This document shows, piece after piece, positions 1 through 36,745 of a stretch of 64,000 bases of DNA (positions within the stretch are counted from its first letter, which is position 1; each line of letters begins with the position of its first letter). The translations under genes were made by a program, and so were the position numbers. The notes beneath the pieces were generated by a model that saw only the letters and a list, made by a program, of their open reading frames with translations, searched no databases and was not told the origin of the DNA. This DNA is from Eutreptiella sp. 'Long Island Sound 2002' (Eukaryota; Euglenozoa; Euglenophyceae; Eutreptiales; Eutreptiaceae), in the NCBI GenBank assembly GCA_964036045.1, contig OZ038381.1, forward strand, positions 127,107,708-127,171,707, in the 5' to 3' direction.

Positions 1-1024
1 ATGCAATTGCTGGAACTTTTCAAACAATTGCCTGCCAGCCTCCTCCGCTCCTCCGTTCGAACGGCTGTGGTATGCCACCGTCTTGGCATGCCTCACGCCC
101 ATGAACTTGCACACTGTGCGAAACCATGCGCCAACGAACTGCGTACCCCTGCCGCTGCATATCACTGCTGGGACATCAAATACCGTCAACCAATGCCGAA
201 TGATTGATTGCGCCACGGTCTTGGTTTGCAGCCCGACTCCGTGCTTGTCCCTCTTGTCCTTCTTCTTGGATTGCCGGGAACCGCCACGATGTATCCGCTG
301 TCGCGATGGACTACCAACATGACACGATCAAAGACCTTGCCTTCCACGGTCACTTCCGGCATCGCAGAGACATCCATTGAAATTGACCTCATGGGACTTC
401 CCGGAATGGCTGTGTACACGTGGTTTCCAGCAGTTAACCTGTTCGGATGTTTGGTGGCCCTGCAGACCGCACACGCCTTGCAATACCGGTTCAAAACTGC
501 GTAATGACCCAGAGGGAACAAAAACCTCAACTCCGAGTCCTTCTGCAATCTATCTCGTTTCGGGTGCATCACCTGAGTGTTGTGCCTATGGTCAATCAAG
601 TCAACCACCCGGTTTTCGGGAACCAAAAGCTTGTCCTTGAGGAATAGCTTGTCACCGTCTTCCGTCATTCCCTCTAGCCAATCTTCGTAGGATGACACAC
701 TCACCGCACTCAAGTACTTGAGCCAATGGTCCGAGTTTGCATAATCATTTGACCGATCCTCCATCAATACCAATTGTACTCCTTCAATGGCTCGTACGGT
801 GTCCTCCTCCTTCATTTGCGACTTGGGCCAGCTCCGCGCGGGATCCCATCACCACAAAGCATTTTGCCTCTGCCTCCGACTCGATGATACGCTTGGCCTC
901 CGCTGTCTCCTCGGCGTCGCAATGCATGGAGATGTCCATCAAAGCTTTCGCCCGGTAGGCCCAACGACTGAGGCAATCGGCCACAGTGTCGTCCTTTCCA
1001 GACACATACACCATGCTGAAATCA
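1..1024 (-). pseudogene. Ty3-A RNase H C-terminus and integrase fragment
   Basis: Reading leftward, the fragment starts with the end of RNase H (VYVSGKDDTVADCLSRWAY, about 1,012-955). An integrase H2C2 zinc domain follows (HRHNTQVMHP, then CKACAVC near 480-460), then the catalytic core (first Asp in SMDVSAMPEV near 370). A frameshift at about 240-300 separates this from the rest of the core in another frame, where RHWLTVFDVP leads to the RGTQF motif and then SRSNGGAEEAGRQLF with the catalytic Glu. The second catalytic Asp is absent: the codon before RGTQF is GGC (Gly), where families normally have Asp. With the frameshift, this integrase is dead. The C-terminal part lies outside the window. 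Confidence 0.85.
1006..1024 (+). repeat. Target-site duplication, left copy, flanking LINE-1
   Basis: ATACACCATGCTGAAATCA matches the sequence at 9,473-9,491 at 16 of 19 positions. Both copies encode the same Ty3-A RNase H strand on the minus strand (DFS-M/V-V/L-Y), as expected for a duplicated target. Confidence 0.75.
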
Positions 1025-1345
1025 CTTTCTGAGTGTCTATTTTTTTCGATTGACCCTCAGCATTTTGTTAATGGATCCACCAGTAGTCCAGGCTATTCGG
1101 TGATTGGTGAAAATCCTGGGCTGTTCAAGTTCTGGAGCCTTTCCCGCAGTTTTCAAATCATCACCCCAATTCCTGAGTCCAAATCTACGCTCGCAACCTT
1201 TCAATTGACGCCAAGTCGCCTTTTCGTTCATCCCGAGGACACCATGAATTTCACCCTTTTTGGAAGCTCTACAGCCGCCGACGATGGCATTTCAACGCTA
1301 TTTAACTATTCCTCGTCAAACCTCCTTCAAAAACACCAAGCCTGA
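1025..1345 (+). other. LINE-1 5' leader
   Basis: This stretch lies between the left target duplication and the first open codon of the ORF1 frame after a stop near 1,344. I see no recognisable promoter motif or monomer repeat in it. Confidence 0.5.
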
Positions 1346-3955
1346 AATTCGCCGTTACAAACACGCTTTCCGTCACGCCAATTTGAAGCCGTCGAAGGCA
1401 AAATATTTGACACACGACAACGCATCTTCGTCCCCGAAGTTTACCGCCGTCTACAAGACTACTCTGAGTTCTACCTGGATGTGGAAGGCACCGATATTCA
1501 ATCCGCCTCTGTTGGGAGCAACTCCACGGAAATTCTAGACCGAGGCAGGGTCTCTTCTGTTGCGCACAATAACTACAACGAGCTTGAAAAGCTTTTGTTC
1601 AACCACAAGCGTTTCTACCTAAAGCCGTATGAGTTGGACTATTCTCAAACCGAAGCCAAGAAGTCTCCGCCTACCGCCACCCCGTGGGCTAAACAATTAA
1701 GAACCTTGCTAGACAAAGCCAAAGAAGAGAACAAAGACCTCAAAGGATGGTTCGTTATTCCGGCGTGGGACGCTCAAGTGGTTGCCGCCACCTTTCGCAT
1801 GCTAGGCTCAACTTCTGCCCTTTTTCCTCTCCTTCCTTACATTTCTAGCGTGATATGTATGCACGGAGCACAACTTGGAGACGCCTACAAGGTCAAAAAA
1901 GACAGCAAAGACTCCTACGAGTTCCGCACGAGCGGCCATCAAACGATGCCGTATGTTGCCTTACTCCTAAACACCTCTTCCTTTGACGGGTGCCGATATG
2001 AAGACATCAATTTTAAGTTTGAACCCTTCCGCTTCGCCGTCAAGCACGCCCATCCAACGGTGCGTGACCTCCCGTTGCACAAAGCGCTACGTTTTGAGGT
2101 GAGCATAGAGTTCCTTGACCACATTGAGCCTTCGCCGCCGGAGGACAGAGACAAGTCTCAACCAAAACAACGCAAAATTGGAGACGCCCGTGCATTCATG
2201 AAGTTAATGAACAAAATGTTTGTCCCCGCGCTAGCAAACGTATCGGTGAACACCAAGAATGCTTACTACCCGTTTGGCCACATAGTTCCTTCCGAGAGCC
2301 CGCATTGGGCCTACTACCGGTTTGATTGGGAACTCCCATCCCGCTTTGCCGACGTGCTCATGTTCAAAGTCCGCGAGTGCGCCCAATTCCTCACCGAGGA
2401 ACTCCTTGCAATGGACATGCACGCTTTGCCGACTACCGAAGTGTATCGAGCCGCGATCGCTAGAGACCGGAAGGAAGGAAACAAAGACCTACGAGCCCCG
2501 GAAATGCTCACCATGATGATCGCCAACCTGCCCGGAGGACGGGGCGCCTCACCGCCCTTAGGAGCGGTATTCCGGTCTAAAGACTCCTTGGTCGTGGCGA
2601 TTGACACCACACACGCGCCGTGCAACGTCATGAAAACAGGGGTCCAAACGCTAGCTATCCGCTTCTTCCACTCATGCGGCATTTTTCTCTTTCATGGCAT
2701 AGATGGACAATTGGTGCGGTTTTCGTCACGATCTGACGGCAATACGAGGTCCGCGCCTTCGGGCGCCCCCGAGCGAGCCCACGCAACGGTGGCCCCGCCC
2801 TCATACGACTCGTCTAAGGCCCCAAAGACGGCCGTTCTCCTAGTGGCCCCAAGATCGGCGCATGCTCTCGACTTGCGCGTCCAAGCAAGGTTCCTTGGCC
2901 CGTACGTGTCGTTCGAATTCACGCGACCTCCCTACGAGCACCAACAAGCCCACCTCGTGGTCTACAAAAAGGAGGAATCCGCGCTGCTAGCGCATGATTT
3001 CAAATATGGAGACGCTGCCTTTGCCCCACTACACCGCAACCTCCTCGCCCTCGAGAAGATACTCCCCGCCCAAGACCCGGATGTGGCCGAGCACAAGCAA
3101 CCCATCGTGCAACGCCTCCAAGCGGGCGCCGCCTTGGGGTCCACGGCCTTCGTGTCCCAGCTCGTCTCCGCCCTTCGTGATAGGCCCGCGACGGGGCTGA
3201 CTGAGCGCATCAGCGAGTGGAACGCGGCACCGGACGACGCCGACACCGCTACACCAACGCCAGGACCAAACCGCATCGAAGAGATGTCCGAGACCAGCGT
3301 CCCGCTGCTTGCTCCGCTGGGAGGCGAGGCGACCACCCTCCTACCCCCCGACCACGATGCCCCCACCCCCGCTTCGGAGATACAAATCGACCCCCGCCTC
3401 CCTACTGGTTTTTATTACGTCCGCGACGTATTCTCCGAGAGCCAAGAGGAAACAGTAAAAAAAGGTTCCCCACGACAACACGTGGGAGAAATACCACGGG
3501 CGCTCAGTCCAACACTTCGGCCACGCATACCTCAGCCCGAGCAAAGTCACCGCCACGTCCCACATCCCGGAAGAGTTTTCCTCTATCATCCAAACCTACA
3601 ATGCCGCGCTGGAGCGACTAGGCCTCTCGCACCCCCCCCCAACCAAATCACGGGCACAATGTATCTCCCGGGAGAGGGCATCGGCTACCACACGGAGGAC
3701 CCCTTGCTAGGCGATCCGGTGTCCATCTTTGGTTCCCAGTCGGACACCACAATGTTCTTTAAAAACCCCTCCAACGGGGACTCTTTCTGTATCCGCCTCT
3801 TTGCCCGCTCTCTCCGGGTCCTCACCAGGGCCGCACGCCAGGAGTGGCACCAAGGGATACCCAGACGGAGGGAAGACGAAGTGTTTGGGCTAACTGTCCC
3901 CCGTACCATCCCTCGGCTCGCTCTAATCCTCCGCCACATCCCACAGGCAAGCTAA
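1346..3955 (+). pseudogene. LINE-1 ORF1 with C-terminal AlkB-like domain
   Basis: The frame is open from about 1,346 and the true start is uncertain; coding-looking residues such as RIFVPEVYRRLQDYSEFYLD lie upstream of the GTG at 1,481. The first roughly 650 residues match no family I recognise: there is no zinc knuckle, RRM or esterase. The segment to about 2,700 looks globular, and that from about 2,730 to 3,360 is richer in Pro and Ala. The C-terminus from about 3,385 is AlkB-like (separate entry). Within it the frame slips at (A)7, 3,457-3,463, and returns at (C)9, 3,632-3,640. LINE ORF1 proteins usually bind RNA and act as chaperones; whether this one does is unknown. Confidence 0.75.
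3385..3955 (+). other. AlkB-like 2OG-Fe(II) dioxygenase domain in LINE-1 ORF1
   Basis: Segments in AlkB order are GFYYVRDVFSESQEE (about 3,400-3,450, ORF1 frame); then, in the +1 frame between the A-run and C-run, TWEKYHGRSVQHFGHAYL (about 3,480-3,535), IPEEFSSII and ALERLGL; then back in the ORF1 frame, YLPGEGIGYHTEDP (3,661-3,702), ARSLRVL, ARQEWHQGIPRR (to about 3,865) and PRLALILR (about 3,910-3,935). These correspond to the AlkB R-x-VQHFG strand, the YxPGxGIxxHxD iron motif, the distal iron His (codon 3,848-3,850) and the RxxxxxR 2-oxoglutarate motif. The expected Asp of HxD is Glu (HTE, 3,689-3,697). The family oxidatively removes alkyl groups from nucleic acids; its activity here is unproven. 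Confidence 0.8.
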
Positions 3956-4258
3956 CCCACGAAAGCCAGAGGGCCGGATACCCGCCTCCTGCGCTCTCCA
4001 GCCCCCTCTGCCTGAAAACACAAGGGTCAAGATTCAGTGAATCACCGGCCAAGGTCACTGCTTCCTCCGTCACCGGCAAGGGGCTAGACGAAGAGCTCGC
4101 CTCGGCCGGAATACCAGCCGACCAAATTCAACATTTCCGTTGCCTTAGCCAGCCCAGCCAGCCTGACTCCCCGGCACCCCCCCCCGCCCCCCCCTATCCC
4201 GCCTCCCCCGAAGTCCGGTACGCGCCTACAGAATAGGTACCAACGGCCTCACCGCCCC
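3956..4258 (+). other. LINE-1 ORF1-ORF2 junction, possible ORF1 C-terminal extension
   Basis: The ORF1 frame stops at 3,955. A different frame (about 3,940-4,236) stays open through a Pro/Ser-rich stretch (AGIPADQIQHF, then a PPPAPP run) and stops at 4,236. It could be the natural ORF1 end after a further frameshift, or an untranslated spacer. Confidence 0.35.
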
Positions 4259-5321
4259 CCCATACCCTCCCCCTCAGAACTGCGTTTTCTCTCCCACAAT
4301 TTGCAGAAGAAACGTATAGTGAGCAGCCAAATTCTCCGACACCTCAAGAACGACTTCGACATCCTCTTCCTCCAAGAAATCAGTCACGCCCCCATCCTTC
4401 CCCACTCATACGCCTACGGTTCGGGCACTAAAGCCACCATTGTTTCGAACATCAGCCAGGACAAACACTCCAGAGGCGAGCACGGGTCCGTTTTGGTTTG
4501 CTCCCCCCGGCTCGCCCATTTCGTTACCCCCCTCCCCCGACTCGATACGGAAGGGCTGCTGGCAGCAGCTGTTCTCACCCTCCCGGGGGCCCCGCCCACC
4601 TTGTTGGTCTCGGTATACGCCCCGAGCGCGGACGTCCACCGCTCAAAAATTGAAAACATCCTGCGGCCACTCATGCATCAGTATCCCAACCACGTCCTAG
4701 GCAGAGACACCAACTGCATAATGTGCCCTGAGCTGAACGGAGCAAACCTCCAAATGGACAACGAGTGGCCATGGCTCCGCAAGCAGGTCACGAGCGACCC
4801 GCCACGTCTCATCGATACCTTCCGGCACTTTCACCCGACCGAGCGGTCTTTCTCCCGACACCCCACCCTGTACAGGGCAGGCAGCAGCCGACTCGACCAT
4901 ATTTTGCTCTCCCCAGCGGCCTCAGAATTCTTTGCCCCCACCTCTGCGACCATCCAAACGGACGACAAAACGTCAGACCACCACCCAGTCACGTACACCT
5001 CTCAAGTCCCCCCCCACCCCTTCTCCGAAACACCGACCACTAAGAGGAACGTTTTCCGCAAGCTGACGGAGCGGGAGCGCTCCAAGCACCACAATTCCCT
5101 CGCCCCCCTGGCGCGATGGTGCGAGTCTACCCTCCTCCGCTTTGAGTCTTTATCCTCGGCAGACATAGAGCTCTTCACCGATGTGGTGCTGGAAGAAGTA
5201 GCGACCAGCTACCACAATATCACCACACCATCACACCCCATTTCCTCGGCTCTGGTTGAGAAAATGAAAGCGTCCCTGCAAACCCTGCCCCCCCCCCAAC
5301 CATCCCAACTTCCCCGCTTCC
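4259..5321 (+). pseudogene. LINE-1 ORF2: APE-type endonuclease domain
   Basis: The open frame contains the order of the exonuclease-endonuclease-phosphatase fold: LRFLSHNLQ (metal-site Asn, about 4,277-4,303), DILFLQEIS (Glu, about 4,352-4,380), SVYAPSAD (about 4,610-4,635), LGRDTNCI in place of the usual GDFN (about 4,700), SRLDHILLSP (about 4,885-4,915) and the terminal SDHHPV (about 4,973-4,990). It would nick target DNA to prime reverse transcription. The frame breaks at a C-run near 5,288-5,298, after which RT continues in another frame. GRDTN keeps the Asp and Asn but has Arg in place of the usual residue between them. The initiation codon is uncertain. Confidence 0.85.
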
Positions 5322-7430
5322 ATGGACACTCTCAACAAACTCGTCAAGGAGTGGGAAACCAAAGTGAACAAGGCCGCAACCACCAAAATCCATCGCTGCC
5401 TTGTGAGGAAAACTAAGATCAAGCGCACCATCAACGAGGCGCTCAACCCCGTGCAACGCGGTGAAATAACGCTGAAGCGCCCGGGCGCCACACAGCTCGT
5501 CTCCACCCCTAAAGAAGTGAGCTCAATTTTTTCTTCCACACTCCTCACCCTGGGGGGCAGCCTCGATTACGCACCGCCGAGCACGCTAGTGGATCGCCTG
5601 CTCACACACTCCCCGACCTGCCCCGAACCCACAAAAAATAGCCCTCTCCCTGACATTACCTGGGAATCGTTCCGCAACACGCTCAAGAGGTCAAAGCCCA
5701 ACAAGGCGGGTGGGCGGGACTTCACAAACAACTACACGTTGCACATCTCCCCCCCCCCTGTCCAACAATTCATTTGGAGGGTATGTAACCACTACCTCCA
5801 CCAGCCGTTGCCCGAGAAATGGCTCGAAGCCAACATTCTCTTGCTTTTTAAGAAAGGTGAACTGACGAACCCCGTAAATTACAGGCCTATAGCCCTGCTG
5901 AACAGCGTATACAAAATAATTGCAACACACGCCAACCGTGAGCTACTGACAGCGGCCATCGAACACTCCATCATACACCCCACCCAGTTCGGCGGACTTC
6001 CCAACCGCAGATGCCAAGACACATTTTCAACCTCTTATCCACGCTTCGGGAATCAGTCGGTAGCTACAGCCTCTACATTGATTTCAATAAGGCTTTCAAC
6101 TCCGTTCCCCACTCCACCCTCTTCACAGTGCTGTCCCACCTGAACTTTCCCACGCACCTTGTAAACCTCATTCAATCCTTGTACCGTGCCCCCCGTGACT
6201 TCCCGGTAGTGTCAGGGCACACCCAGTCCTCCCACCTGCAAACCAGAGGTGTTCGGCAGGGGTGCCCCATGTCACCCATCCTTTTCTGCCTTTACCTGAA
6301 CGTTCTCCTCTTCGCCCTGCCGTCTCACGTCACGGCACCCCCCTCCCCACACGAGTCGGGCCACGCCTTCGTTGACGACCTCCTCTATTGATCAGAGGAT
6401 GGGGACCGCATACAACAAATTTTGAATTTCTTCGACACAGTCGCCAGGGAGTGGGGCCTGGAATTAAACCTCAGCAAAACCCAAATCCATGCTATGGGAA
6501 CAGCCCCCCCCGAGAACTCTCACCTCCCCCTCGGGCACCCCCCTGTCAACAACCGACCAGAAGACGGGGCAACCACACAACTGCTACAAATACCTAGGGG
6601 TATACATCTTCACCGCCAACCACGAGGCACAAACGCTGGCATTGGCCAAGTCAGAAATACGCTTTTTTTTCACAACCCTCCAACCCCTCCGGCTCACCCT
6701 TTCGGAATACATTCTCTTAGTAAACGTCCAACTCATCCCTATTCTTTCCTACCGCCTCATGGCACACCCCCTGGCCGTGAACGAGTTGGGAGCCCTCCAG
6801 GCCATGATCTGGCAAAATATTGCACATGACCCCTCCCCGGACAAGGCCAACAGGATTTCCCGCCTCGTCTCTCCTAAGGACCGCTACAGCCCCCGCCACC
6901 AGGGAGGCTTAGGACTCCGCCACTTCACTTTTTCTATTTGCATGGCCCTGGTGAAAGCCGCAATCAGGTACCTCAACGGGGACGGCCCAGCCTCAACAGA
7001 CGAATCCTTTTCCGAAGCGATGCTCTCCACCACAGGCAACCCAATCCAAGACACCGTCATGGACGCGTGCCACACCATAGGCCTCCGATACCACAGCACC
7101 GGCCTCTGGGCCTCCTGCCCCCCCTCCCTCTTGATCCCGAAAGAGAAAGTCCAAGTCCAGTTCCTAGCCACCAAACCAGCACCACAATACAGCAAGTTCG
7201 GCAACAGGTTGAAAAGAACACCCCAAGACCTAGCGTTCCACCTAGGAACAGTCACAGGGGTGCACACAGAATCAGCCACACTCCAGTTTTCGGACGGCAC
7301 CACCCACAACATCAAAGACCCCGGTCTCCGCCGCAACGAAAAAGAATACACCTTTCAAAACCCAGCCATTTCTGTCCGCCTCACCACGAACTGCTTACCC
7401 CTCCCCTTCTCCACCCCCAGGGAATACATC
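5322..7430 (+). pseudogene. LINE-1 ORF2: reverse transcriptase domain
   Basis: Non-LTR RT blocks appear in order: KPNKAGGRDFTNNY (about 5,695), PEKWLEANILLLFKKG, NYRPIALLNSVYKI (about 5,877-5,915), the finger motif TQFGGLPNRRC (about 5,982), SLYIDFNKAFNSVPH (catalytic Asp, about 6,070-6,115), RGVRQGCPMSPILF (about 6,245), FVDDLLY (catalytic DD, about 6,368-6,388), LELNLSKTQ (about 6,459) and YKYLGVYI (about 6,590). It would copy element RNA at the nicked target. A frameshift near 6,018 separates the finger motif from the first Asp, a TGA follows FVDDLLY at 6,389-6,391, and another frameshift lies at the C-run near 6,505-6,512. The thumb and linker continue to the next C-run near 7,437. Confidence 0.9.
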
Positions 7431-7444
7431 CTCAACCCCCCCCC

Positions 7445-8517
7445 CTGGGCCACACGGCGGAGTTCTGCTCGACTCGTCGCTGCATGGCGAGCTGTACCGG
7501 CTCCCAGAACCTCACTCCCTTGACCCCGATGACCTCGAAGAATGGGGTTGTGAAGCAGCCCTTGCCCTCCTCCTCACATCGTCCCCCGGCACGACATGGG
7601 TGTACTTGGATGGCTCAGCGGGCGCCTTGGGCTACGGGTCTGCAGCCACCCTGTTTTTCCCAAATGGCTTCAGATGGGTGCTGTGCCAAACGTCCCCATA
7701 CCAGTCCTCAGAGGGATCGGAGTTCTGGGCGGCTATTATGTTCCTACGGTGGGCCCTTGCATATCACCCGCACCTCACCTTTGCCGTGCTAGGGGACAAC
7801 CTCCACGTTATCACTGTTCTCTCCCCGAGCACCTCCCCAGACCTCCCGTCACGCTTGCCAGCCGGCACGTGGGAATCCTCTCTTCAGTCGATCCAGGCCT
7901 CCCTACGCCCAGGGATGATCCAGGGTTGGGGGTGGATCAAAGGGCACGCCGGGTTTGTGGGGAATGAGATCTCGGATGCTTACTCAAAGTGGGCCGCCCA
8001 CGTGATGGTCTGGGACCCCTCCCTCCTTCCGCCCCCCGCGATAGGGTGCATATCCAGAGGCCCCCTCCCCGTCATCCACAAACTGAATACCACCTCAATC
8101 AAGCACCTCCTCCCTTGCCACAAACACGAAAACATCCACGCACCGTCCAGCTTCCATTTTTACAACCACACTTCATGGTTCCAAGGCCTCCCCTTCAAAT
8201 GGTCCTCCGGAAACTTCAACACCGCGCCTTTTGCTTTCCACGAAGACTTGCGCCCTCGCCATTGCCACGCTTGCCCCGACCCGCACCCAATGGATGTTAA
8301 CTCTTTCGTCTCACACTGCCCAACGTGCGGACACCTGGTACAAACCTACATTCAGTGCTGGCGCCTCCCCTTCACCACGGTGGTGTCCCAATGGTGGTCC
8401 GCGACCACACACGTCGGGGAGAGGCGCAATTTCCGTCCGGGGGCTTGTCCCCATGTCCCTGTACACCAAAATCACAACCCCCCTTTCCGACCGAAGAAAA
8501 CCAGCACACTGTCATGA
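7445..8517 (+). pseudogene. LINE-1 ORF2: RNase H domain and Cys/His knuckle
   Basis: After the C-run at about 7,435-7,446 the frame reads GVLLDSSLHGELYRLPEP and then type-I RNase H blocks: WVYLDGSAGALGYG (about 7,588), SEGSEFWAAI (about 7,708), AVLGDNLHV (about 7,783) and WIKGHAGFVGNEISDAYS (about 7,930). These give the D-E-D and His/Asp residues expected for the fold. A C-terminal knuckle CHAC...HPMDVNSFVSHCPTC (about 8,265-8,330) resembles the Cys-rich motif near the end of I/R1-type ORF2 proteins. RNase H would remove the RNA strand after first-strand synthesis. The frame ends at 8,517, but coding-looking sequence continues in another frame. Confidence 0.87.
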
Positions 8518-9186
8518 CTTAAAACTCGCCCTGAAGGCTCGTGTTCCCCAGCTCCTCAATGCCCTATACCGCACGCTGGAAAGGCTAAACGAAAACCCCC
8601 TTCCAGCCCCGCTCACCCCCCCCTTGGGCCCCAACTCATGGGGACGCCCCTGGTCGCCTTACAGCACGTCACACACCGCCCTACAGCGCCCCCCCCCCCC
8701 GCCTACCACCCTCCATCCCCCCTCCCGGACAAAGTGGCACACAAGCCTCCAAAGCGGCCCCGTCCCCCACCCCCTGCGGCACACGCCAAAGCTCGGAAAC
8801 ACGCCCGCCAGCCCCCGAGACCTGTCCGGCCTCTGTCGCTGAAACGCAAAACCGCAAGCAAACCTCAGCCAGAGCCCCCGCCCCCTAAACGGCCGCTCAG
8901 AATCCGGGACATGTTCAACCTCCCCCGCCCCCCTCGACCAGCACCCCCCCTCGCCGCCCCCAGCCCTGTTTCCGCACCTTCTCCCCGCATAACAAGGTAC
9001 TTCGCACCAGCCCCCCCCCCCTCCCGGGAGCACAATCTCACAATCGCCCTCATCTTCGTCCCACGTGTCATCTCTTTGAAAAAGCCACAGTTACACGTTT
9101 CTCTCACGCCAGCCCTCAACAGCCCTAACACGGCGCAACCAATCAGTACTACCACACTGGCACTCACCAGTCACTTCTGCAAATGA
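8518..9186 (+). other. LINE-1 ORF2 proline-rich tail
   Basis: Downstream of the knuckle, one frame (about 8,440-8,640) reads LKARVPQLLNALYRTLERL. A second (8,638-9,186) is very rich in Pro, Lys and Arg (KPPKRPRPPPP, KPQPEPPPPKRPL) and contains SPRITRYFAP. It is probably a disordered, basic, nucleic-acid-binding or adaptor tail reached by further frameshifts at C/G runs. Strong sense-strand C bias could also keep such a frame open by chance, so coding status is tentative. Confidence 0.45.
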
Positions 9187-9472
9187 ATCCCTCCCGCAAG
9201 CCACCCCCCGTGCTCAAGCCGTCATGCTCTAACCCCCAAACCGCAACCGTACAGCCTTCGGGAATCAGGCAGAGACCCCGGCTCTGCGTTTGTCTATAAC
9301 GGGGCTGCCAGGTCTCGTTGAGATAAGGCAGAGGAGGACAGCAGCGTACAGCGGTACTCAGCCCGCGATTAAACTTGGTTTCGGGCTCCCGCCCCTCCCT
9401 GAAAAAGCTTGGCGCGCAAGAGCCTTTCTCCCCGGCCTGGCCAGCCACAAAAGGCGCCGTTCAGTGCAAAAA
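9187..9472 (+). other. LINE-1 3' UTR and short A tail
   Basis: Non-coding sequence runs from the last stop to (A)6 at 9,468-9,473, directly before the right target duplication. Confidence 0.6.
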
Positions 9473-9491
9473 ATACAGCACGCTGAAGTCA
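9473..9491 (+). repeat. Target-site duplication, right copy, flanking LINE-1
   Basis: ATACAGCACGCTGAAGTCA matches 1,006-1,024 with three mismatches. On the minus strand it continues directly into Ty3-A RNase H (VAKFDFSV). Confidence 0.75.
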
Positions 9492-9992
9492 AATTTGGCT
9501 ACCGTATGGTGCCACCGGGCACGTCGGGCTGGCCGATCTGGGGGGGTGTCAACGTGCTCGTTGTGTCAACTCTGCAAACCTTGATGGTCGGTGCACACGA
9601 CAATGGGTTGCAAACCAATATGCCTGAACCACTTGCGCAAGGCGCAGATAATGGCATACGTCACCTTTTGCCTCGCACTCCAAGTGCAGGGTTGCCCCTC
9701 TGCCAAAACTCTACTCCAAAAGGCCACTGGGACATGGGAACCATCCCCTCAGACCTGCTCCAGGACTGCTCCCACGGCATAATCCGATGCATCGGTGCGG
9801 AGCACAAATCCTTTGTCCGGATTGATAAGGAATAATCCCAACTTTCCCAGGAGAGTTCTCTTGAGCGTTTGGAACGCTCTTTCCGCCTCCGTTGTTCAAG
9901 CCAGCTTTTTCTTGCTCCCGTTGCGCCCATCAAACGTCCCAACCTGCAGCATTTTGTGTAATGGTCCCAAGAGTTTGGCATACATTCGTACG
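9474..9992 (-). pseudogene. Ty3-A RNase H domain, N-terminal part
   Basis: The minus strand reads PLHKMLQVG, then in a shifted frame LFLINPDKGFVLRTDASDYAVGAVLEQV, a TGA, and GSHVPVAFWSRVLAEGQPCTW, KVTYAIICALRKWFRHIGLQP and VCTDHQGLQS. These are the TDAS, E/CALR and TDHQ blocks of Ty3-type RNase H. One stop lies inside the domain and another after LQS. The last strand, VAKFDFSV, runs into the LINE-1 insertion point and resumes at about 1,020. Confidence 0.85.
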
Positions 9993-11080
9993 TAACCCGA
10001 ATAATCCCATGAACGAACGCAACTCACTGATGGTGGTGGGTCGCTCCCAATCGTTCAAGGCGACCAACTTGCCCCGCATCGGCCTGCGATGCCCATGACC
10101 AACCACGTGTCCCGCAAACTCGACATCCTCCACGAATAAGGATGCCTTTGTCGGGTTGCATGCCATTTGGTGGCGATCTAGGACGTCAAGCACTCGTCTC
10201 AAGTCTTTCTCGTGGGCCTTGATCCCTTCATCCTCCGACATGTCTTCCGTGCCAGACCCAAAAAGGATGTCATCCACAAACAGGTCGGCGCTATCCTGCC
10301 GAGGTCCCCGCAGATCCTCCATCATGCGTTGGAATACCACGTTGCCATTCTTGGCTCCCATCGGCACCACTTTCCATTGCATGCAGCCGAGTGGCGTACT
10401 TGTCGCCGTACACGCCCTGGAGTTCTCATGCAGCGGCATCTGGTGATAGCCATGTTTGAGGTCTCACACCGTGAAGATGCGCTTTTGGGCCTCTTTTTGC
10501 AGGATAGTGTCGAATAAGGGAAGAGAGTACGAATTATGCTCCGTTTGCTCATACAACTCTCGATAATCAACCACTAACCGCCATTTGCCCTTCTCCTTCT
10601 TCGGCACGATAAATGCTGGGCTTGCCCACTCACTGTCAGAAGGTTCTATCCCTCCGCGCTCGATGAATTCCTTCAAAAGCCTTTTCATGGCCTCTGCCCG
10701 CTCACGTTGAAGCTGATATTCTCGATGCTGATATAATTTGGGGTTGGGCTTCAATTTAATCCGCGCCGTGCCAAACCGACCTCGATCCGGTGGATTTTGT
10801 TGGCCACACCGCTGAACAACCGTGGATAATCCCTCACCAATCTTTCCCGCAGCTCATCCACTCTTCGATTTTTCCTTGCTCCTTGGGCCGCAGCTGTCGG
10901 CACGGTCACCACTGACCGAATGGCCGCATAGCTTTCCTCCGGATCGCTCTCCGACATTTCCCCATCCATCATACCCTCTTCAACATCGTGGGTCTGCAGC
11001 CCCGGCGATAATTTTCTGAATTCTTGGAGACTGAATGGGTGGCGGGCTTCGATCCGGTACGCGAGCGTGGGAAATTCCAC
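9993..11080 (-). pseudogene. Ty3-A reverse transcriptase
   Basis: The blocks are LKPNPKLYQHREYQLQRER (about 10,754-10,700), SEWASPAFIVPKKEKGKWRL and VVDYRELYEQT (about 10,650-10,560), PLFDTILQ, a stop, then DLKHGYHQMPLHE (about 10,460-10,430), TPLGCMQWKVVPMGAKN, FQRMMEDL and the catalytic LFVDDILFGS (about 10,285-10,255). The thumb KASLFVEDVEFAGHVVG and the connection RPTTISELRSFMGLFG follow. This is the ordinary Ty3 RT layout. The stop in block B and frame changes on either side mark it as decayed. The spacer at 10,751-11,080 (RLVRDYPRLFSGV) is the usual pre-RT helix. Confidence 0.88.
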
Positions 11081-23501: not shown

Positions 23502-23764
23502 ATTCAATCTGTCAACTGAACAGAATTGAATAAAATTGAACATTGACAAAATTGAACACAGAGCGCGCCGACATTTTGCGCTCGCGCGCGCAGTCAAGAA
23601 GACGCAAATAGACGTCATGTACAGCGACAGACGGCTTTAAAGCTCATAAAAGCTGAGGATTTCACAGTGTGTGTGTGGTGATAAAATACAATCCTGTTCA
23701 TGTAGGTTAATTGTGTGTTGCCCGAAATTGCTGTGTCCACTATTGACCGTGGTGCGCGCTACTC

Positions 23765-25675
23765 ATGTTCAATTTTTATGCGCGGATAATGGCCTCTCGC
23801 AACATCTATGACCCTCATGGACTCCATGATATCCTATTGAATGCAACACGTGCAACTTCCGGCTTTGATGATGACGTTGTTGACGTGCTCGCAAACTTTT
23901 TCATACAAAGGTATGTTTTTCATACAAAGGTGTATAATACGGCCCATGGTGGTAATATCGTTCAACGTTGTACACAAGAGGCGTTGAACGACCATGGTAC
24001 GCTTATTTGCACACCTATACGTGCGGTAGAGCTCATTGTGGATTTAAGGCTGCCACGGACGAGATATCCTATCCTACAAGAGTTCATAAGTGACTTCCGG
24101 CACAAAATTACCCAAAAGGTCCGTGTACAATGGTCTCCACGCTTACCTTTGTTGAAGTCCGTCAACGATAAGTGGAGGGAATTGTGTAGTGAAATGCGGC
24201 TAGAGCCTCCAAAACTTACTACACAAGACGAAGCTATTGGGATATCATGGAGTATCCTAGAGGTGGTCCAGTTTATACAACGACATAAGGTGTTACATAG
24301 TGCATGGGATACTTCCATACCTTTGACCCTTATTGTCCGTGGGGACGCATTCCCCGTTGCGGGCACTCAATGGTCCCAATTATGCATAACATTTGCTAAT
24401 TGGGGCCAATTGGCCCGGAACCTGTCACACCAGTTCATCATTGGTGTGGCATATTGGAATGACAAGGATGCTACAATCCTTGCCAACCTTAGGGAAACAA
24501 ATATAAAGCTATGTGTTACCATGCGTCCTTCGTGGTTATTCACATCCGATTGTTCAATTGACGAATTGAACTTTCAACTCGTTCAATTGAACATTACAAC
24601 TTACAATGCACCTTCTTCTCTTTCTAGTTGTTGCAAGCTCTCATTGACGGTTCAACACTTGAGTGGTTCGGGAAGAAGGAGCATTGCGAAGTCCGGTTCG
24701 GGGGTGACAAGCCGTGGTTGCGGCGATGGTTGGGATTATCGGAATATTGGGAGATCGCTAGTATATATGCATTTGCCATTTGGCAAAGGGCCGAACGTAA
24801 GTTCATCACCGATGCCATTTTTGCGTACCAATGCCGCGGAACCCAAAAACAGAACGGGTGGTGGTCCTTGTATGCAACGACGTGGTTGTATGAGGCCACC
24901 ACTCATTCGTTTGGACCGTTGGCAGTTTGTACAATGTATCCTCCATGGCCTCATGGCCATAGGTCGTTTGATTTGTACATATATAGAGGATTCCGTTGAG
25001 AACTATCATGATAGTAAGGGCATTGCTATCAACAAATCTTTGAAAACGTGTAGAGTACGGTGGTCCTTAGGCAAGACCCCCAAGCGAACTGGTGAGTGTA
25101 CATGGAGGCTGATGCTACATGCATGGCGTCTTATTGCACAACGGCTTGGTATAGTTGGCACTCGTGCCCACAAGAGTGTTGAGGACATGTGTTGGCTCCT
25201 ATGCCACCTATATAGCGCATGGAAAAATGATGAAGCCATTCATCATTGTCAACGTGTGGTTGCTAACTTTCGAACCCATACTGCTCCTAAACGTGCATCG
25301 CACTATTTGTACTTTTTTGAGTTTGTGTGCCCCACACTACTCCCTAAACTAGGTAAGTTTGGGCTTGCCATATTTTGTCAAGATAGCGCCGAGTCCCTTA
25401 ACCCCCTTTTGAAAAGCATTTTTCTAACCATGACTAACCGCGGAGGCTCAACGCAAGTTGATACTACAATCCCTCCTGGTGTAGCGGATCGTTTTCATAG
25501 AGAGAGTTTGGCAATGGAGCAAACTCTTCAATATATATTTCTCTATTTTTTTGTTCCAATTATTGCACGCAGCGAGACGCGGTGGGCGCAATGCACGAAC
25601 CAAAAAATTGTGGATGCTGTATATGCGTGGTTCGGTGCAGATAATAGTGAATCGGAGGATGAAGTGGAGGACTGA
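23765..25675 (+). pseudogene. Possible DDE-type DNA transposase
   Basis: A 636-codon frame starts at an ATG-like position after about 260 bp of leader containing several ATTGAAC motifs. From about 24,626 to 24,985 the better protein is in another frame (WFGKKEHCEVRFGGDKPWLRRW, SEYWEIASIYAFAIWQRAER), so two compensating frameshifts occur. Segments LIVRGDAFPVAGTQWSQL (about 24,330), IGVAYWNDKDATILANL (about 24,440) and CQDSAESLNPLLKS with TMTNRGG (about 25,378-25,445) have acidic residues spaced as in DDE-like transposase families. I cannot name the superfamily. Neighbouring terminal repeats support a transposon context. A non-transposase hypothetical protein remains possible. Confidence 0.45.
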
Positions 25676-29491: not shown

Positions 29492-30507
29492 TCAGTCCCT
29501 AGCTTTAGTCTTGGAGGCAAGCGTCTCAGCGACCCTGAGCAACTCACCAAGGTTGTTCTGGGACAAGTAGTCTACCAGGGCTCCCAGGTGGCCTCTTCGA
29601 CTCCAAACCCTTCCCAGAGGGTGAGCCAGCGCCAACCCTGGCAATAGCGGTGGCCTAGGACAGACTTCACCAGGTAGAAGCCCTCCTTGGCCATCTCCTC
29701 GGCGTTCATGTCGGGGAGATCCCCTTCAACTTCCATAGGGCTTACAGTCCCCTGTAGGTCTAGGGCGGCGATTACCTCGTCGTGCAGCTCCCACTCTTCC
29801 CCACATAGGTCTTCAGGATCAGAGTAGCGCTTCAGGTGTTGAGCAGCGCACACCAGGGTCCCCCCTAGTCGGGGAGAACACCGCACTGTGATACGGTGTC
29901 CATCCACAGACAGAATCTTGTAGGGCCCGAAGTAGGGGTCATCGCTGGTAGAGCGTGGCCAGCCTGGTAGTCGGCTGTGGTGCACCAGCACCCAGTCCCC
30001 CTCTTCGTAGGTAGCAGGCACCCGGTGCTTGTTCTTCTTGTTCCACTGACGCTCCCTCGCTCTCTGGAGCATAGCCTTGGCCTTGTCCACCTTCGCTTGT
30101 TGCTCCCGGACCAATTCACCCACAGAAGAATCGGTATCCTCTGGATAGGGAGCATGTAGGTACCACGCCGGGCGCCCTAGGAATAGTTCATGGGGCGAGT
30201 AGCCAGTAGCTGAACTCTCTTGGGAGTTCATCATCAAGGATATGACGGGGAGTAGTCTCACCCAGTCTCTGGTGCGTTCAGATTTGCACCATATCCTTAC
30301 ATTCTCCTTGAGGACACGAATCTGTCGCTCAAATAGGGGGTTGCTCGTGTGAGAGTAGGGGATCCCTGTAGACACCTGGACATTGAGGGATCTCAGGACC
30401 CTCTTGTACCAGCCGGTATCTGAGCGTACTCGTACGTCCTCATCGGGACTGATCTCCTTGGGCGCCCCATAGACACAAAACCACCCCTCCAGGAGTATCT
30501 TGGTAGT
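29492..30507 (-). pseudogene. Ty3-B integrase core end, C-terminal domain and chromodomain
   Basis: After a TAG at 30,508-30,510 the frame reads APKEISPDEDVRVRSDTGWY and PYSHTSNPLFERQIRVLKEN (second Asp region and catalytic Glu), SATGYSPHELFLGRPAW, and the integrase C-terminal KKNKHRVPATYEEGDWVLV and GPYKILSVDGHRITV. It then reads EGFYLVKSVLGHRYCQGW and LTLWEGFGVEEATWEP, a chromodomain with aromatic residues in place. The frame shifts after WEP (about 29,572), and LVDYLSQNNLGELL continues to 29,492. Chromodomains direct chromovirus integration to marked chromatin. Confidence 0.88.
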
Positions 30508-30510
30508 CTC

Positions 30511-31985
30511 CTATCCGGTAATGTGCTTGGGACATGGGAACACCCTGGCAAACCTGGTCAACCCAGAGGTCACCACGAGGGCAAAGTCGTAGCCCCCAAT
30601 CTTCGGCATCTCCGTGTAGTCCACCCAGAGAACACTGTTAGCACAGTGGGGGATGGGCAGGGTCGAGTAGAGGCCTCTGTCCCTGATATCCCCAGGTTTG
30701 CAGGACCTACACGGGCACTTGTCCACGATAGGCTGGAGGGTCTTCCGCAGTAGGTCATCAGTCCACGTAGTGTGGAACCACTGCTTGAATAGCCTCAGCG
30801 TACGGTCAGCACCCACATGACCACTGGACTCATGGGTCCACTTCAGCAGCCCTGGAACTCTGTCACTGGGTACCACGATGCGGTCCTCGTGCCAGAGGTA
30901 GCTCTTCTCCCTCTTCCACTGCTCTTGGTTGACCAGGAGGGGCTCAAGGTCTTTCTCCAGGCGCTTGTAGATATCCCCAAACTCCTTCGGGTATTCCGCT
31001 TGTTGGAGTCCATCTAGGGGGCGTATCATAGTCATGTTGAGGTCCAAGTGCACGTCCATACGGCTGAACGCCTCATTAGCTAGCACTTCAGACTGGGCAC
31101 CAATCAGGGCGTCGAAGTTGTTGCGGTTGATGTAGTCTGCACACTCGTTCTTCACTCCCTGAATATGGTGTACCGTCAGCCGTAGTTGGCTGAGGTAGGT
31201 CCGCCAGCGCCGTAGCTTGGCCATCTCAGGTGGGGGACCCTTCTGGAAAGTGCGCACCGGCTCTTGGTCGCACAGCCAGAACACAGGGTTACTCTCCAAT
31301 ATTCGTGCCTGAAAGGATAGCACCAGCATACCCGCGAGCAACTCCTGCTCATAGGTGGAGTAGTTCCCCCTGGCCTGGTTCCATTTGCAGTTCCAGTGGC
31401 CCAGGGGTACTAGGACCCACTTGTCGTCAGGGTAGCTGTGCTTGAGACTTCCATCTCTGTTGAGACCTTCAGTCCCCCATTGGGAAATAGCTGAGTCCAA
31501 CTCCTCCTTCTCTAGTGCCTGCCATTGGAAGAACGTTCCACCACCGCCCACATTGCTGGCGTCGGTCACCAGGATAATCTCACCTTGTGCTTTAGGCACG
31601 CCCAAGCATTTAGCGTTGGACACCTTGTCTTTGAGCTTGTGAAACGCTTGTTGCTCTTGTAGGCCCCAGCGCCAAGTAGTACTCTTCTTGATCAAGTCCG
31701 TCAAAATGGCGCTGGTGTAGGTGAAGTTCTGGATACAGCGGCGGTAGAGGTTGCACGCCCCAATGAAACTGCGTACATCAAGGAGTCCTTTCTTGGGGTC
31801 TTCATGTCGTACCTTAGCGTCCATCAGAAGTTTGGCCTTGGAGGCCGCTGGGGTCCACCACCAATAGCCAACGTTAAACCCCAGGTACTGCATGGTCTTT
31901 TTTGAATGTTCTCAACCGCATCAACTTGTTCTGGGGCTGACGTTAGGTACTGCATGGTCTCCTGCATGAACTCACACTTCTCCAG
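30511..31985 (-). pseudogene. Ty3-B RT end, RNase H and integrase N-terminal half
   Basis: LEKCEFMQETMQYLGFNVG (about 31,985-31,870, split by a 62-bp duplication and insert) is the RT thumb start. DVRSFIGACNLYRRCIQNF is the connection. RNase H has ILVTDASNVGGGG (about 31,570), YSTYEQELLAGML (about 31,355) and FWLCDQEPV (about 31,280). Integrase has the zinc domain KWTHESSGHVG ... CPCRSC (about 30,845-30,705) and the first catalytic Asp in VLWVDYTEMPK (about 30,630). The frame is otherwise open for 460 codons, so this portion is well preserved. Everything N-terminal to KCEF is absent. Confidence 0.9.
31883..31960. repeat. 46-bp insert between 16-bp direct repeats in Ty3-B RT
   Basis: AGGTACTGCATGGTCT occurs at 31,883-31,898 and 31,945-31,960. 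Removing one copy and the 46 bp between (which carry a T5/A5 run at one end) gives the expected KCEF..YLGF continuity. This resembles a short target-primed insertion with target duplication. Confidence 0.6.
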
Positions 31986-31987
31986 CT

Positions 31988-32430
31988 AGGTGGGCTGTGG
32001 GGGGGCAGGGGTGTGTTGCCCGCGGCCACGGCTATGGTCCATGCGTGGTCCGCCGCGTCCGCCACGTAGTACCCTCCCAGTTGGTCCCGGAGGGTGTCGG
32101 TGAGGAACCCGAAGAAGCTGGGGTGGCTGGCGGGGGGGGGTGCGGCTGGGGCCGCGGGCCGTTCGAGGTGGCGGGGGTTGAGGTCCCCGCAGTGGGGGCA
32201 GTGGGTGAGGCGGTGCGCGGCTCCCAGGCAGACCCAGTCGTCTGGGTTGCAGGGCAGGGCTGTCTGTGGTAGCCGCTGGCGAACGCAGAGGGGACATGCG
32301 GTGGCTGGTGGTTGGTGGTACCTGTGGACGGACGGCGGCGTGGGGGGATGGGGGCTGGTGGCGCGCGCATGCTGGTGGGAGCGTGTGCAGGGGTTGACGT
32401 GCGGTGGCGGTCACCACCGCCATGTCGTCC
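31988..32430 (-). pseudogene. LINE-2 ORF2 C-terminus
   Basis: Beyond FADD the coding frame changes repeatedly. One frame reads PDDWVCLGAAHRLTHCPHCG (Cys/His knuckle-like, about 32,250-32,190) and SFFGFLTDTLRDQLGGYYV (about 32,120-32,060), which looks coding. It ends at the Ty3-B junction near 31,988. Confidence 0.5.
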
Positions 32431-33900
32431 GCAAACCCCAGGAGCGTGGTCTGTAGGGAATATGGTGCGACGTCCGGGTATGTGCGTCGGATGTAAAACG
32501 CCAGCGGGAGGCTGACGAGTAGGAAGAGGAATGGGCCTTCCGCACCCCCTTGCGGGACCCCACTGGCAGGGTGGACCCATGGGATTGGTGCCCACGTTGG
32601 TTTTTATGGCGTACATGCGGGTGGCGAGGTACGCTTGCAGGAAGGCCTCGGGGGGAAGTCCCATGTGCTCCCAGACCGCCCTGAGGAGGCGGTGCGGGGT
32701 GTTGGGGAAGGCCCCTTTGACATCCAGGGACGTGATGATGAGGCTGATTGGGTCCATGTCCACCACGGCGTCTTGCAAAAATATGGCCTCCAATGGCGAC
32801 ATACCCGGTATGGCCCCCCACATTGAGGGCGGTACAGCCCGGTACACCGCCGGGGCCACCCGTTTGAGGATGAGCATCCATATGAGTTTGGCTTCCGTGG
32901 TGGCGCACACAATGGGTCGTCAGTTGTCGCGGTTCGTCCAGTCGCCTTTCTTATGCAGCGGGTGTACCAGGTTTGCCCAGTCGGGTGGCACGTCCGTTTT
33001 GCCGATGGTGATATCCCACAGGCGCGCGGCCAAGTGCCTCTTCAGGTTCAGCGGGAGCCTACAGTAGAGCTCCGCCGGGAGTCCGTCCACCCCCGGGGTT
33101 TTTCCCGGTTATAGTTTGTACAACTCCTCATCAAGTTCCCGAATGGTGAGCGGGGTTCGGTGCATGTCTCGTCTCTGTGTCCGGTTGTAGAATTTCGGCA
33201 GGTGGGATATCAGTTCCTCCGTGTACGCTGACAGCTCGCCATCCTCAGTGTCGTGTTGGCGCAGGAGGCTGTTGAGGACTTCTTCCAGGACCACCTTGGG
33301 ATCGTTGGTCACTCTGCCGTCCTGTAGGCGTACCCCCTTGATGCCTCGGTGGCCCGTCTCCCTCAGGACCTTGTCCACGTGTTTCAGGGATTTGTAGGGT
33401 TGGGGGTTTTGAAAGTAGGGTTGTTGTTGTTGCGCCAGTTCCTCTGCCCGGCGGATGTGCCATTCTCTGAGTTGCCGGCGTGTGGTGTCCAGTCGTGCGG
33501 CGATTTCCTGGCCGTCATGTTGGGCTTGTAGGTCATGTGACCGCACTGGTGTGTGTAGTGCTCGCTTGTCGTGCCATATAGTTGTCACCAGGGATCGTAG
33601 GTCTTGATGCGGGGTGGTATCATCCTGTGTTCTGTGTTGTCCGTTGAGGCCGCATGCCGTGGCCGCTTGTCGCATGGCGGGGTTGAGGTCCGTCTTGTCT
33701 TGTTGGCCTAGGATGCATTGTACCGTGCGGTAGTACGCTACACATTTGTGGGTGTCGTGCTCTCCTGGCAGCTTGATGGGTGGCTGCTCCTCGTGGTCCA
33801 TGCGATCCCTGGAGGCCGGGGGTACTTGAAGTACCTTGATTTGTATCTCCAGGGGTCGATGTCCGGTGATCTTGGATGGTAGGTCGTGGTATTGCGCCCG
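32411..33900 (-). pseudogene. LINE-2 reverse transcriptase
   Basis: In sequence: REWHIRRAEELAQQQQPYF and HVDKVLRETGHRGIKGVRL (pre-RT), TIRELDEELYKL, a stop at about 33,109, PGKTPGVDGLPAELY, HPLHKKGDWTNRDN, a stop, RPIVCATTEAKLIWMLI, GMSPLEAIFLQDAV, LIITSLDVKGAFPNTPH (first Asp, about 32,735), then in another frame SGVPQGGAEGPFLFL and LLGFADDMAVV (catalytic DD, about 32,440). The blocks are non-LTR RT. VKGAF and FADD differ from LINE-1 (FNKAF, FVDD), so the two LINEs are separate families. Confidence 0.85.
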
Positions 33901-33902
33901 TG

Positions 33903-34600
33903 TCATCTCGACGTGTGCCGAGTCCCCGTAGCAGAGGTCGATGCGGGAACCTGCCGCGCAAGATTGTGGTGGTCTGTGCGAGGGCTGGCCTCGTAGAGAG
34001 GCTGTGAGGTCCTGCAGGCCCAGATGCTGCATGGCCACTTGCACCGCTGCGTCCTCGGGCGTCTATCGCCCTCCTCGGTCGTCTGCTGATGGGGCTGCAT
34101 TGAAGTCTTCTATGATGACAGTCGGCCCCATCATGGCAAGTTGTCGGTAGGCCTCCATGAGTTGTTCGAGGAATGTCACCGTGGCGTCTCCAAAGGGGAC
34201 GTGTACGATGATGACATTCAGTTGCCAATTTGGGCCTACCAGTTCGTATGCCACTAGGGGGCCTTCCACCCCCAGGGGGTGGTGGACGTGCACTTGGACT
34301 TCACCTTTGTGGGATATGGGCACTCCCTTGACCCACGTGGTGCGGTATTGGTGTTCCGTCCTGGTGAGGACGGGGGTTAGGTTGGGGCAGACTGCCTGGG
34401 TTTTGAGGGCCCGTTCCTGCCACACCATGGCATCAGGGTCGCATTTCGCCATGACACGTACGTCGAGTAGGTCCGGGGCTTTGGCCGCGTTGTACAGGGC
34501 GCCTGGTTTGTTGAGGGACATGAGAGCGACGAGCGCAGTTGTGACCTCGTGGGCGCGCGCCTTGGTGGCCCCACGGGGGGTCCCTGGCGCGGCGTGGTAG
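33903..34600 (-). pseudogene. LINE-2 APE-type endonuclease
   Basis: SLNKPGALYN (about 34,515), MVWQERALKTQ (Glu, about 34,425), VIIVHVPFGD (about 34,215), VIIEDFNAAPSADDRGGR (Asp-Asn, about 34,120-34,065), a TAG at 34,060-34,062, then SRIDLCYGD (about 33,940) and the terminal ITGHRPLEI (about 33,860). These are the ordered motifs of the LINE endonuclease. The upstream boundary with ORF1 is unclear. Confidence 0.82.
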
Positions 34601-34603
34601 TAG

Positions 34604-36745
34604 TCATTGTCCAAGGCGCAGTTTGTGGTTGATTGCTGTGGCCACCCTTTGTTCCTCCGGAATATCCGGCTCCTCGAGCCATGTCTGCGGCACGTCACCT
34701 GTCCAGATGGTGCCCGGTGGTACCTGGTTGGCGGGTGTGCGGAGCTGCACCGGGCACTCCGGGAATTGTCTGTCATCCCAGAGTTCGAGGTTTGAGGTCT
34801 CAGCTTTTTTGCCCCACTCTGGGAGTGCTTGCCACTTGATTTTCAACTGTAGGTTGCCATGTTGGCCCGGTGTGGCCAGTCTGCCCTGTATCTTGCCCCG
34901 GAACCATACAAATTGTTTCGGTTGTCCTCTAAACGTGGCTCCGTACACTCCCTGTACTTCTGCGCCGTCTGGCCATTCGGGGTGCATGGCGGCACGTTCC
35001 GCCGGCGTGAAAAACGGGCAAGCTGGGGCCTTCGGCTTTTGTTGTGTATCGGGTGGCCATCGGCTCCGGTTTGTGCCGTTTGGCCCGGCGGGCCGAGGCG
35101 TTTGCTCCCCCTGGGCGGGGCCTCGGTTTGGGCTGGGGTTGTTCTGGTGCCGGTTTGGGGGCCGGCTACCGTGCGTCGCGGCGGAATATGCTGTACGCCG
35201 GTCCCTGTCCCTCCTGTGGCCCGTGCATACCCCGAAGCTGATTTGCGTGTTCTTTTAGGCTGGCGGTGCGGAGTTTGAGAGTTTGCTCCGTGTCCGTGGG
35301 CGAGGACATGCAGCGCTGCGCCTGTGCTGTTCCGTGCTTTCACACATAGGCTGCCAGGTTGTGCGTGAGTGTAAGCCACGTCTCGGGCAGCGTGGTGTCC
35401 GTGGCTGGGGCATCGAATGTCCAGTGCATCGCCGTTTTGAGGGCCAACCAGTGCGCCCTGGGGTGGTGGATGTGGTGGGTGGAGTGGTTAAAGCGGTCCC
35501 CCAGTGCCAGTGGGGTCGCCGGTTTCGCTTTCGGTGTGCCCGTGGCGTTCCACTGTACCACCCACCATGTGTGTTGGTGGGGCGTTAGTGTCACCGTGGG
35601 GGTATCCGGGGGCCTGTCAATAAAGGCGGCCCAGTCAGTGACCTTCGGACCTGCGGCTTTCCGGTCGTGCTGCTCCGTTGGGCTGGTCAGGGTCACCAGA
35701 TGGTTCACAAGGTCCGGCGTCAGGGTGTCTTCTGTGTCCTATACTCTGTCCTTACGTGCCGTGGGGTGGCCCACGGCAACGTCCCACGCGTCCGTGGTGG
35801 CCGCCAGGGTGTTGGCCACCAGGGTGATGACATCGTCCGTCAGGCCCTCCACAATGAAGTACTTTTCCCCTGCCAGGGTGGCCGGCAGTTGGGCCGTGTG
35901 TTTCATGGTGAGGTGTAGTAGCACCCTGTCGGGGCCTGGGGCGTTTGGGTCCACGGGCCTGGGGTCGTGTGTGCCGCGTCTCGCCAACGGGTGCCGTGGT
36001 TTGTCGGTGTTGGGTAGTCGTGGCCCCAGGGCCATGTGGTGTACCTGATCGAGACGGATGGCTTGGCCCGTGGTGTCGCCCGTCGTGAGGCACACTTCTT
36101 TGGCGTCTGTTACCGTGTTTAGGTATATACCTGGGAGTGGGGCGGGTTGTGGGGGCAATGGTTGGAACAGGGCGTGTGGGCAGGGGTGGCCGCAGGGGGC
36201 GTCCCCGGGCCGCAGCCCTGGGCAGGGGCCATCCATGCCCCGGAGAACGGGATATAGTATGTAGTGCCCCGCCACCCTGCGTAATTTTTTGGGGTTTAGG
36301 GTGTTCAACCACCCCCCCCCACCCTGATGGTGACAGAGCCCTGGTCGATCCAGGTGGCTTGGTCGCGGTCAATGTCGTGGTGTAGGGCCCTCCTGATGGT
36401 GCCCCATCTTCGGCGGTGGGTGGTGTGATCTGGGGCGGGGCACCCCGTGTCTATGAGAGGCATTCTGGCGTTTGCGAGGGTGGAGTTTATGATGTTGAGG
36501 GGGGCTGGGTTGCTGTGGGTGCCGGTGGCGGTGTTCCCCGCGGGGTTGATGCTCTGGCGTGGTAGTCGCCTCCCGTGGGGGGGTTGGTGCCAGGACGGGT
36601 CCGGCAGCCGGATGGGGGCTGGTAGGTCCCCGTATCGTGCCCAGGTGTACACCGTGTATGTCGTGCCCTCGGTGTCGGCCTGCAGTCTGTACGTGGACTT
36701 CCGTGCCTCGCCGTAGGTGACGAGCGCATTTGAGGTGGGGACGGT
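34604..36745 (-). pseudogene. LINE-2 ORF1, C-terminal half
   Basis: Minus-strand frames join end to end: HYTVPTSNALVTYGEARKS and TYTVYTWARYGDLPAPI (36,745-36,325), a frameshift at a C-run near 36,312, PKKLRRVAGHYILYPVL and GEKYFIVEGLTDDVITLV (36,308-35,739), DWAAFIDRPPDTPTVTLT (35,708-35,340), and QGVYGATFRGQPKQFVWF (34,987-34,604). I recognise no domain. It continues the frame that ends at the LTR element's right edge (39,012). Confidence 0.55.

Follow-up and report, generated by a model that had tools for sequence, protein, structure and literature searches.

Does a retrotransposon of the long interspersed nuclear element (LINE) type encode an AlkB dioxygenase of its own, and what would such an enzyme do for the element? 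This question is raised by a stretch of 64,000 nucleotides from the euglenophyte Eutreptiella sp. 'Long Island Sound 2002' (contig OZ038381.1, positions 127,107,708 to 127,171,707 of the forward strand), the whole of which is called the window in the following. A preliminary description had proposed that the first open reading frame (ORF1) of a LINE in the window contains an AlkB domain. This proposal is well supported by matches to AlkB proteins of solved structure, by the fusion of the domain to ORF1 in relatives, by Pfam matches and the predicted fold of these relatives, and by target-site duplications around the element. Likewise, the existence of a multi-copy LINE family with AlkB at the C-terminus of ORF1 is well supported.

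In the window ORF1 extends from 1244 to 3955 on the plus strand, which holds all parts of the LINE. It comprises 903 codons in the family, as counted in the protein P0002 from its MNFTL (903 residues), and here it is interrupted by a stop codon at 1343-1345 and by two frame shifts. The AlkB-like Fe(II)/2-oxoglutarate dioxygenase domain (3395..3952) forms its C-terminus. All five AlkB motifs of the preliminary description are present in the order that it had given, i.e., VQHFG (3507-3521), (M)YLPGEGIGYH (from 3659), ARSLRVL (3803-3823), EWHQGIPRR (3842-3868), and PRLALILR (3911-3934). The frame of VQHFG differs from that of the other four, and the domain is split by frame shifts near a run of A (~3450-3458) and a run of C (~3629-3638). 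The domain sequence read through these shifts matched the solved structures of ALKBH8 (E-value 8.7e-9), Ofd2 (1.1e-8 and 1.7e-8), and ALKBH6 (2.8e-7), and the reversed sequence yielded a single unrelated match (E 0.27). The RxxxxxR motif (3914..3934), which we take to bind 2-oxoglutarate, is intact. Two iron ligands are altered, which had been overlooked before. The HxD position (3689..3697) reads H-T-E, a conservative change from Asp to Glu, while the other six aligned sequences have H-x-D, and the second iron-binding His (3851..3853) is replaced by Gln, while it is His in all six others. Because of the two altered ligands, the stop codon and the frame shifts, the window copy cannot count as the working enzyme; judged by its sequence, it is a dead member of the family. 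A second AlkB copy was not found in the 64-kb window.

A protein search with the read-through ORF1 retrieved 24 relatives. The largest examples are P0002, with 984 amino acids and 163 member sequences (contig column: 1), and P0003, with 824 amino acids and 121 members; in both, the ORF1 body runs uninterrupted into the AlkB domain. Precomputed matches to the Pfam family PF13532 together with the ORF1 fusion were present for P0001-P0004, P0013, and P0016. PF13532 matched all six relatives that were tested (E 2.7e-9 to 8.4e-7), whereby two passed its gathering score of 31.2 bits (P0002 with 31.8 and P0003 with 38) and four remained slightly below (29.8 to 31.0). P0025 also scored above the gathering score, and its structure was predicted confidently as the double-stranded beta-helix fold of AlkB. 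The recurrence of the ORF1-fused domain in other copies and the fold, both of which the preliminary description had named as checks, were thus found. An NCBIfam scan of P0025 and P0003 gave no match. Two further relatives extend beyond the domain: P0037 continues into the spacer between ORF1 and ORF2 (window 3284-4115), and P0052 has, after its AlkB part, a 19-residue piece that weakly resembles window 5642-5698 (58%, E 2.5e-4), a segment within ORF2 that crosses a stop codon in the frame of the window. The AlkB domain is part of ORF1 and not a neighbouring gene. It is part of the LINE, because the duplications enclose the ORF1 in which it is located and because relatives from many contigs repeat the fusion. 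With the domain as query, a profile search retrieved 69 proteins, of which, judged by identity, 62 belong to the LINE family and seven are AlkB proteins from elsewhere (P0079, P0082, P0086, P0088, P0091, P0092, and P0093, with 28-34% identity). The family proteins probably come from one genome, as suggested by their source (ENA), their long contigs and their identity, which is mostly 70-99% in the aligned parts.

The borders of the element were defined by its insertion site. The LINE spans 1025..9472 (~8.45 kb, with an uncertainty of ~2 bases at the 5' end) and is bounded by a left target-site duplication at 1006..1024 and a right one at 9473..9491, both without assigned strand. The left copy comprises 19 bases, 3 of which differ in the right copy; the latter follows the short stretch of 5-6 A with which the LINE ends. 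An exact repeat of at least 8 bases was not found at the borders; the duplication emerged only when mismatches were allowed, as overlapping matches of 12 to 14 bases with one offset and at most 2 mismatches each. When the left and right flanks were joined, an open RNase H frame of a Gypsy-type element was restored on the minus strand (...AKFDFSVVYVSGKDDTVADCLSRW...). The relative protein P0023 contains the matching Gypsy stretch uninterrupted: its residues 1-27 are 56% identical to the right flank (9553-9473), and its residues 22-88 are 61% identical to the left flank (1023-841), with a six-residue overlap at the duplication. The extent of the LINE was deduced from the duplications, the joined Gypsy frame and the uninterrupted stretch of P0023. 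An independent sign of the 5' border is that P0001, P0002, P0023, and P0083 have differing upstream sequences and converge at one point on HFLSVYFF, which is read at 1023-1046 in the window. The LINE therefore sits inside a broken Gypsy-type long terminal repeat (LTR) retrotransposon on the minus strand. This host element occupies window 1-1024 and 9473 to ~15754; its reverse transcriptase was matched at 9930-10463 (E 7.2e-16), and an integrase zinc domain was weakly recognised at 186-848 (E 0.008). No LTR pair around the LINE was seen in a self-comparison of the window.

The second reading frame, ORF2, has the anatomy of a LINE and is broken across several frames in the window copy. It contains an endonuclease domain (4292..4981; PF03372, E 2.2e-5, above the cut-off), for which no solved structure was matched at E up to 0.1, and a reverse transcriptase in two frames (5856..6388; PF00078, E 0.034 and 1.6e-17). 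The latter value, which is above the cut-off, was obtained for the piece that includes the FVDD box (6368), and this piece matched the solved structures of R2 and LINE-1 ORF2p (E 4.4e-9 to 5.1e-8). The RNase H follows at 7594..7992 (PF00075, E 3e-5, with 24.7 bits just below the cut-off of 25.8), and a Cys/His cluster near the end of ORF2 (8263..8328) was spotted by eye and had no family match above the cut-off. Two candidate signals were discarded: the match of P0061 at 7025-7120 as evidence for ORF2, because the piece comes from the AlkB region in a shifted frame, and the many weak matches of P0024 outside ORF1, because they look like low complexity. An Rfam scan of the window gave no match.

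Next to the broken window copy, many relatives have an intact active site. Of 86 family proteins, 76 could be aligned to P0025 and 27 covered all five catalytic positions; all five residues are kept in 17 of these 27. In a comparison of the two large clusters, 15 of 196 residues differ in the domain and 33 of 628 aligned residues elsewhere in ORF1 (Fisher p 0.22). The domain is thus not detectably faster-drifting than the rest of ORF1, and the representatives of the two clusters agree at all five catalytic residues. On the level of sequence, a broken copy in the window and intact relatives elsewhere suggest that the element uses an AlkB enzyme for its own benefit. The protection of its template or the stripping of host marks, both considered in the preliminary description, would fit the intact active site in the other copies.

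How could the element profit from the enzyme? LINE ORF1 proteins bind the RNA of their own element, as is established for L1, and lesions at the pairing face of bases, such as 1-methyladenine, 3-methylcytosine, and etheno adducts, hinder reverse transcriptases and are removed by AlkB enzymes. In working copies, the ORF1 protein would likewise bind the element's own RNA and would thereby place the Fe(II)/2-oxoglutarate oxygenase on the RNA template and on the growing complementary DNA. As AlkB is at the end of the ORF1 protein, the enzyme would then sit on the template that is copied over 8 kb. There it may strip base adducts of the kinds listed above, at which reverse transcription halts or misreads, or it may take off methyl marks that the host has placed, so that a higher number of complete 8.4-kb copies could result. 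By analogy with known ORF1 proteins and AlkB enzymes, we regard it as about evenly balanced whether the domain acts in this way, i.e., clears adducts or host marks from template or complementary DNA and raises the yield of complete copies. Held more tentatively is the wider proposal that template repair was built into a LINE ribonucleoprotein and fixed in ORF1, and that it was acquired independently of the AlkB domains of orchid Gypsy elements and viruses, from another branch of AlkB proteins.

The preliminary description had named a profile search against Pfam as a check, which the relatives passed, but the window copy did not: neither its own frames nor the read-through domain matched an AlkB family at E up to 10. 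The missing match is probably due to the decay of this copy, since the relatives do match. Several results weigh against such a role. Ten of the 27 covering relatives have one catalytic change each, spread over the five positions; single losses scattered in this way are expected when copies of an intact source decay independently. The point estimate of the divergence between the two clusters is higher for the domain than for the rest of ORF1. In addition, a second LINE family with an AlkB fusion was not found among candidates of about 541-1722 amino acids with residues 785-984 of P0002 as query and shared exact words needed; all nine matches of this search were read as the same LINE family. 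In the N-terminus of ORF1 Pfam detected no known domain in the window copy or in relatives, i.e., no coiled coil, RNA recognition motif (RRM) or zinc knuckle, and the model of the full ORF1 was uninformative in this part (predicted local distance difference test of about 30, with a mean of 40 overall), too poor to exclude an RRM. RNA binding by this ORF1 protein is, therefore, assumed by analogy. Lastly, tRNA or histones are further targets of relatives of the ALKBH8 and Ofd2 types.

Among the alternatives, an erasure of N6-methyladenosine (m6A) from the transcript of the element has to be considered, by which it would escape sequestration or decay in the host, as has been proposed for orchid Gypsy elements (PMC9289625, available text). 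According to the accessible part of PMC12786077, removal of m6A helps ONSEN in Arabidopsis. In human cells, by contrast, m6A promotes L1 and ALKBH5 suppresses it (PMC7873242, accessible part), and the nearest solved relatives by sequence are Ofd2, ALKBH8, and ALKBH6, while ALKBH5 was unmatched at E up to 10 or 1. Because ALKBH5 was not among the sequence matches and m6A helps human L1, we rate adduct repair above m6A erasure and consider the latter unlikely.

The domain could also be directed at host chromatin or tRNA and not at the element's nucleic acid, and could relieve silencing or favour the translation of the element. This appears quite improbable, as ORF1 proteins in general are regarded as staying with the RNA of their element, and neither an RRM nor another partner domain of ALKBH8 was detected in ORF1 by Pfam. 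In its favour, Ofd2 is among the best sequence matches and is reported, in the text available of both papers, to have histone activity (PMC3175000), namely on histone H2A (PMC3250473). For ALKBH8, the available part of PMC4051686 describes a modification of tRNA in animals and plants. It also reports for ALKBH8-type relatives DNA repair in vitro, mostly of etheno adducts, which counts in favour of adduct removal.

The AlkB fold might, furthermore, be a mere nucleic-acid binding module of the ORF1 protein, for which catalysis is irrelevant. The 10 covering relatives that lack one catalytic residue would agree with this, but as their changes are single and at varied positions, and as the representatives of both largest clusters keep all five residues, we judge it very unlikely. 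That a misassembly or a nested insertion placed a host AlkB gene or gene model beside part of a LINE is mostly refuted and has a negligible probability. Many frame shifts are present in the window, several of them at homopolymer runs, but the duplications enclose ORF1 and ORF2 jointly, the fusion recurs in relatives from many contigs, the sequence of P0037 leads on from the domain into the spacer, and P0052 has its short, weak ORF2 match after AlkB.

Regarding the origin of the domain, the nearest matches outside the LINE family come from bacteria: P0079 shares 94% identity with a Hoeflea protein, and its relatives are mainly alphaproteobacterial. In a tree of 30 rows, sampled without plant AlkB, ALKBH8 or Ofd2, the LINE domain was placed beside mammalian ALKBH6 with weak support (75/38) and a long-branch warning, its stem having 1.66 changes per column; no donor was singled out by this tree. 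A search of viral contigs with P0002 resulted in nine pattern matches, none of which was confirmed as a relative. One contig of the viral collection (L005:3348-6155) contains a frame of 935 codons whose central part is an ALKBH8-like AlkB domain.

Further features of the window lie outside the LINE. On the minus strand, a second Gypsy-type element is located at 29572-31911 (RNase H, PF17919 with E 7.3e-14 and PF17917 with E 9.3e-8; an integrase zinc domain was matched weakly), and pieces of another retroelement at 32032-34842, with a weak reverse transcriptase match at 32032-32919 (E 8.7e-5, below the cut-off) whose neighbouring frames had no Pfam match. A frame of 642 codons on the plus strand (23747-25675) looks by eye like a hAT-type transposase and had no Pfam match at E up to 0.01. 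A direct repeat of 352 bases (36749-37100 and 38656-39007; 98.6% identity, 1.9 kb apart) may represent the two LTRs of a short, young element. The region 42001-44000 has an extreme strand asymmetry (AT skew -0.73, GC skew 0.37) and imperfect tandem repeats.

Compared with known systems, the element shares with LINEs that have an APE-type endonuclease and RNase H the two reading frames, the endonuclease, reverse transcriptase and RNase H, and the target-site duplication; it differs by AlkB at the end of ORF1 and by a long N-terminus without a recognised domain. With ALKBH8, ALKBH6, Ofd2, and alphaproteobacterial AlkB proteins of the ALKBH8 type the domain shares the fold, HxD...H, RxxxxxR, and 28-34% identity, but these are cellular enzymes outside retrotransposons, and ALKBH8 carries an RRM, which Pfam did not detect in the LINE ORF1 (the N-terminal model being too poor to exclude it). 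Polyproteins of plant RNA viruses, which were among the BFVD fold matches, are another case of a mobile, RNA-based genome with a captured AlkB; they differ in being viral replicases, with a structural identity of 12-20% among the matches listed. By E-value the best BFVD fold match was a Pithovirus oxygenase (2.2e-16).

Fungal DNA transposons and some Helitrons carry TET/JBP proteins and are thus transposable elements with a nucleic-acid Fe(II)/2-oxoglutarate dioxygenase, yet of a different dioxygenase family and in a different transposon class; the available text of PMC12730594, the source of this comparison, names no retrotransposon with TET/JBP. The preliminary description knew of no named LINE family with an AlkB domain. 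This agrees with limited text searches, in which a LINE with AlkB was not found among the matches listed (titles and abstract starts, subscription journals and Repbase uncovered), but an AlkB in an LTR retrotransposon had already been published, i.e., the m6A demethylase of Ty3/Gypsy elements of the orchid Phalaenopsis (PMC9289625, available part). If our reading is true, LINEs join RNA viruses and one LTR lineage as captors of AlkB, here within the protein that deals with the template RNA. As the element brings its own eraser, the role of RNA base damage or modification in limiting retrotransposition would be directly testable, and a dioxygenase that evolution has paired with reverse transcription might find practical application with methylated RNA that reverse transcriptases fail to pass.

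Taken together, the closest precedent is the AlkB of orchid Gypsy elements, followed by TET/JBP in fungal DNA transposons. Both the orchid elements and the LINE described here are retrotransposons with their own AlkB dioxygenase. The orchid elements are LTR elements with an ALKBH5-like AlkB in an additional reading frame (PMC9289625, as far as available), whereas here AlkB is fused to the C-terminus of ORF1 of a LINE and is by sequence nearest to ALKBH6, ALKBH8, and Ofd2. The Ty3/Gypsy backbone of the orchid elements is not shared, as the enzymes between the duplications are those of a LINE and the Gypsy parts belong to the insertion site on the other strand. New, as far as the text searches reach, is the capture of AlkB by a LINE, within ORF1, and probably from a branch of AlkB proteins other than that of the orchid case.
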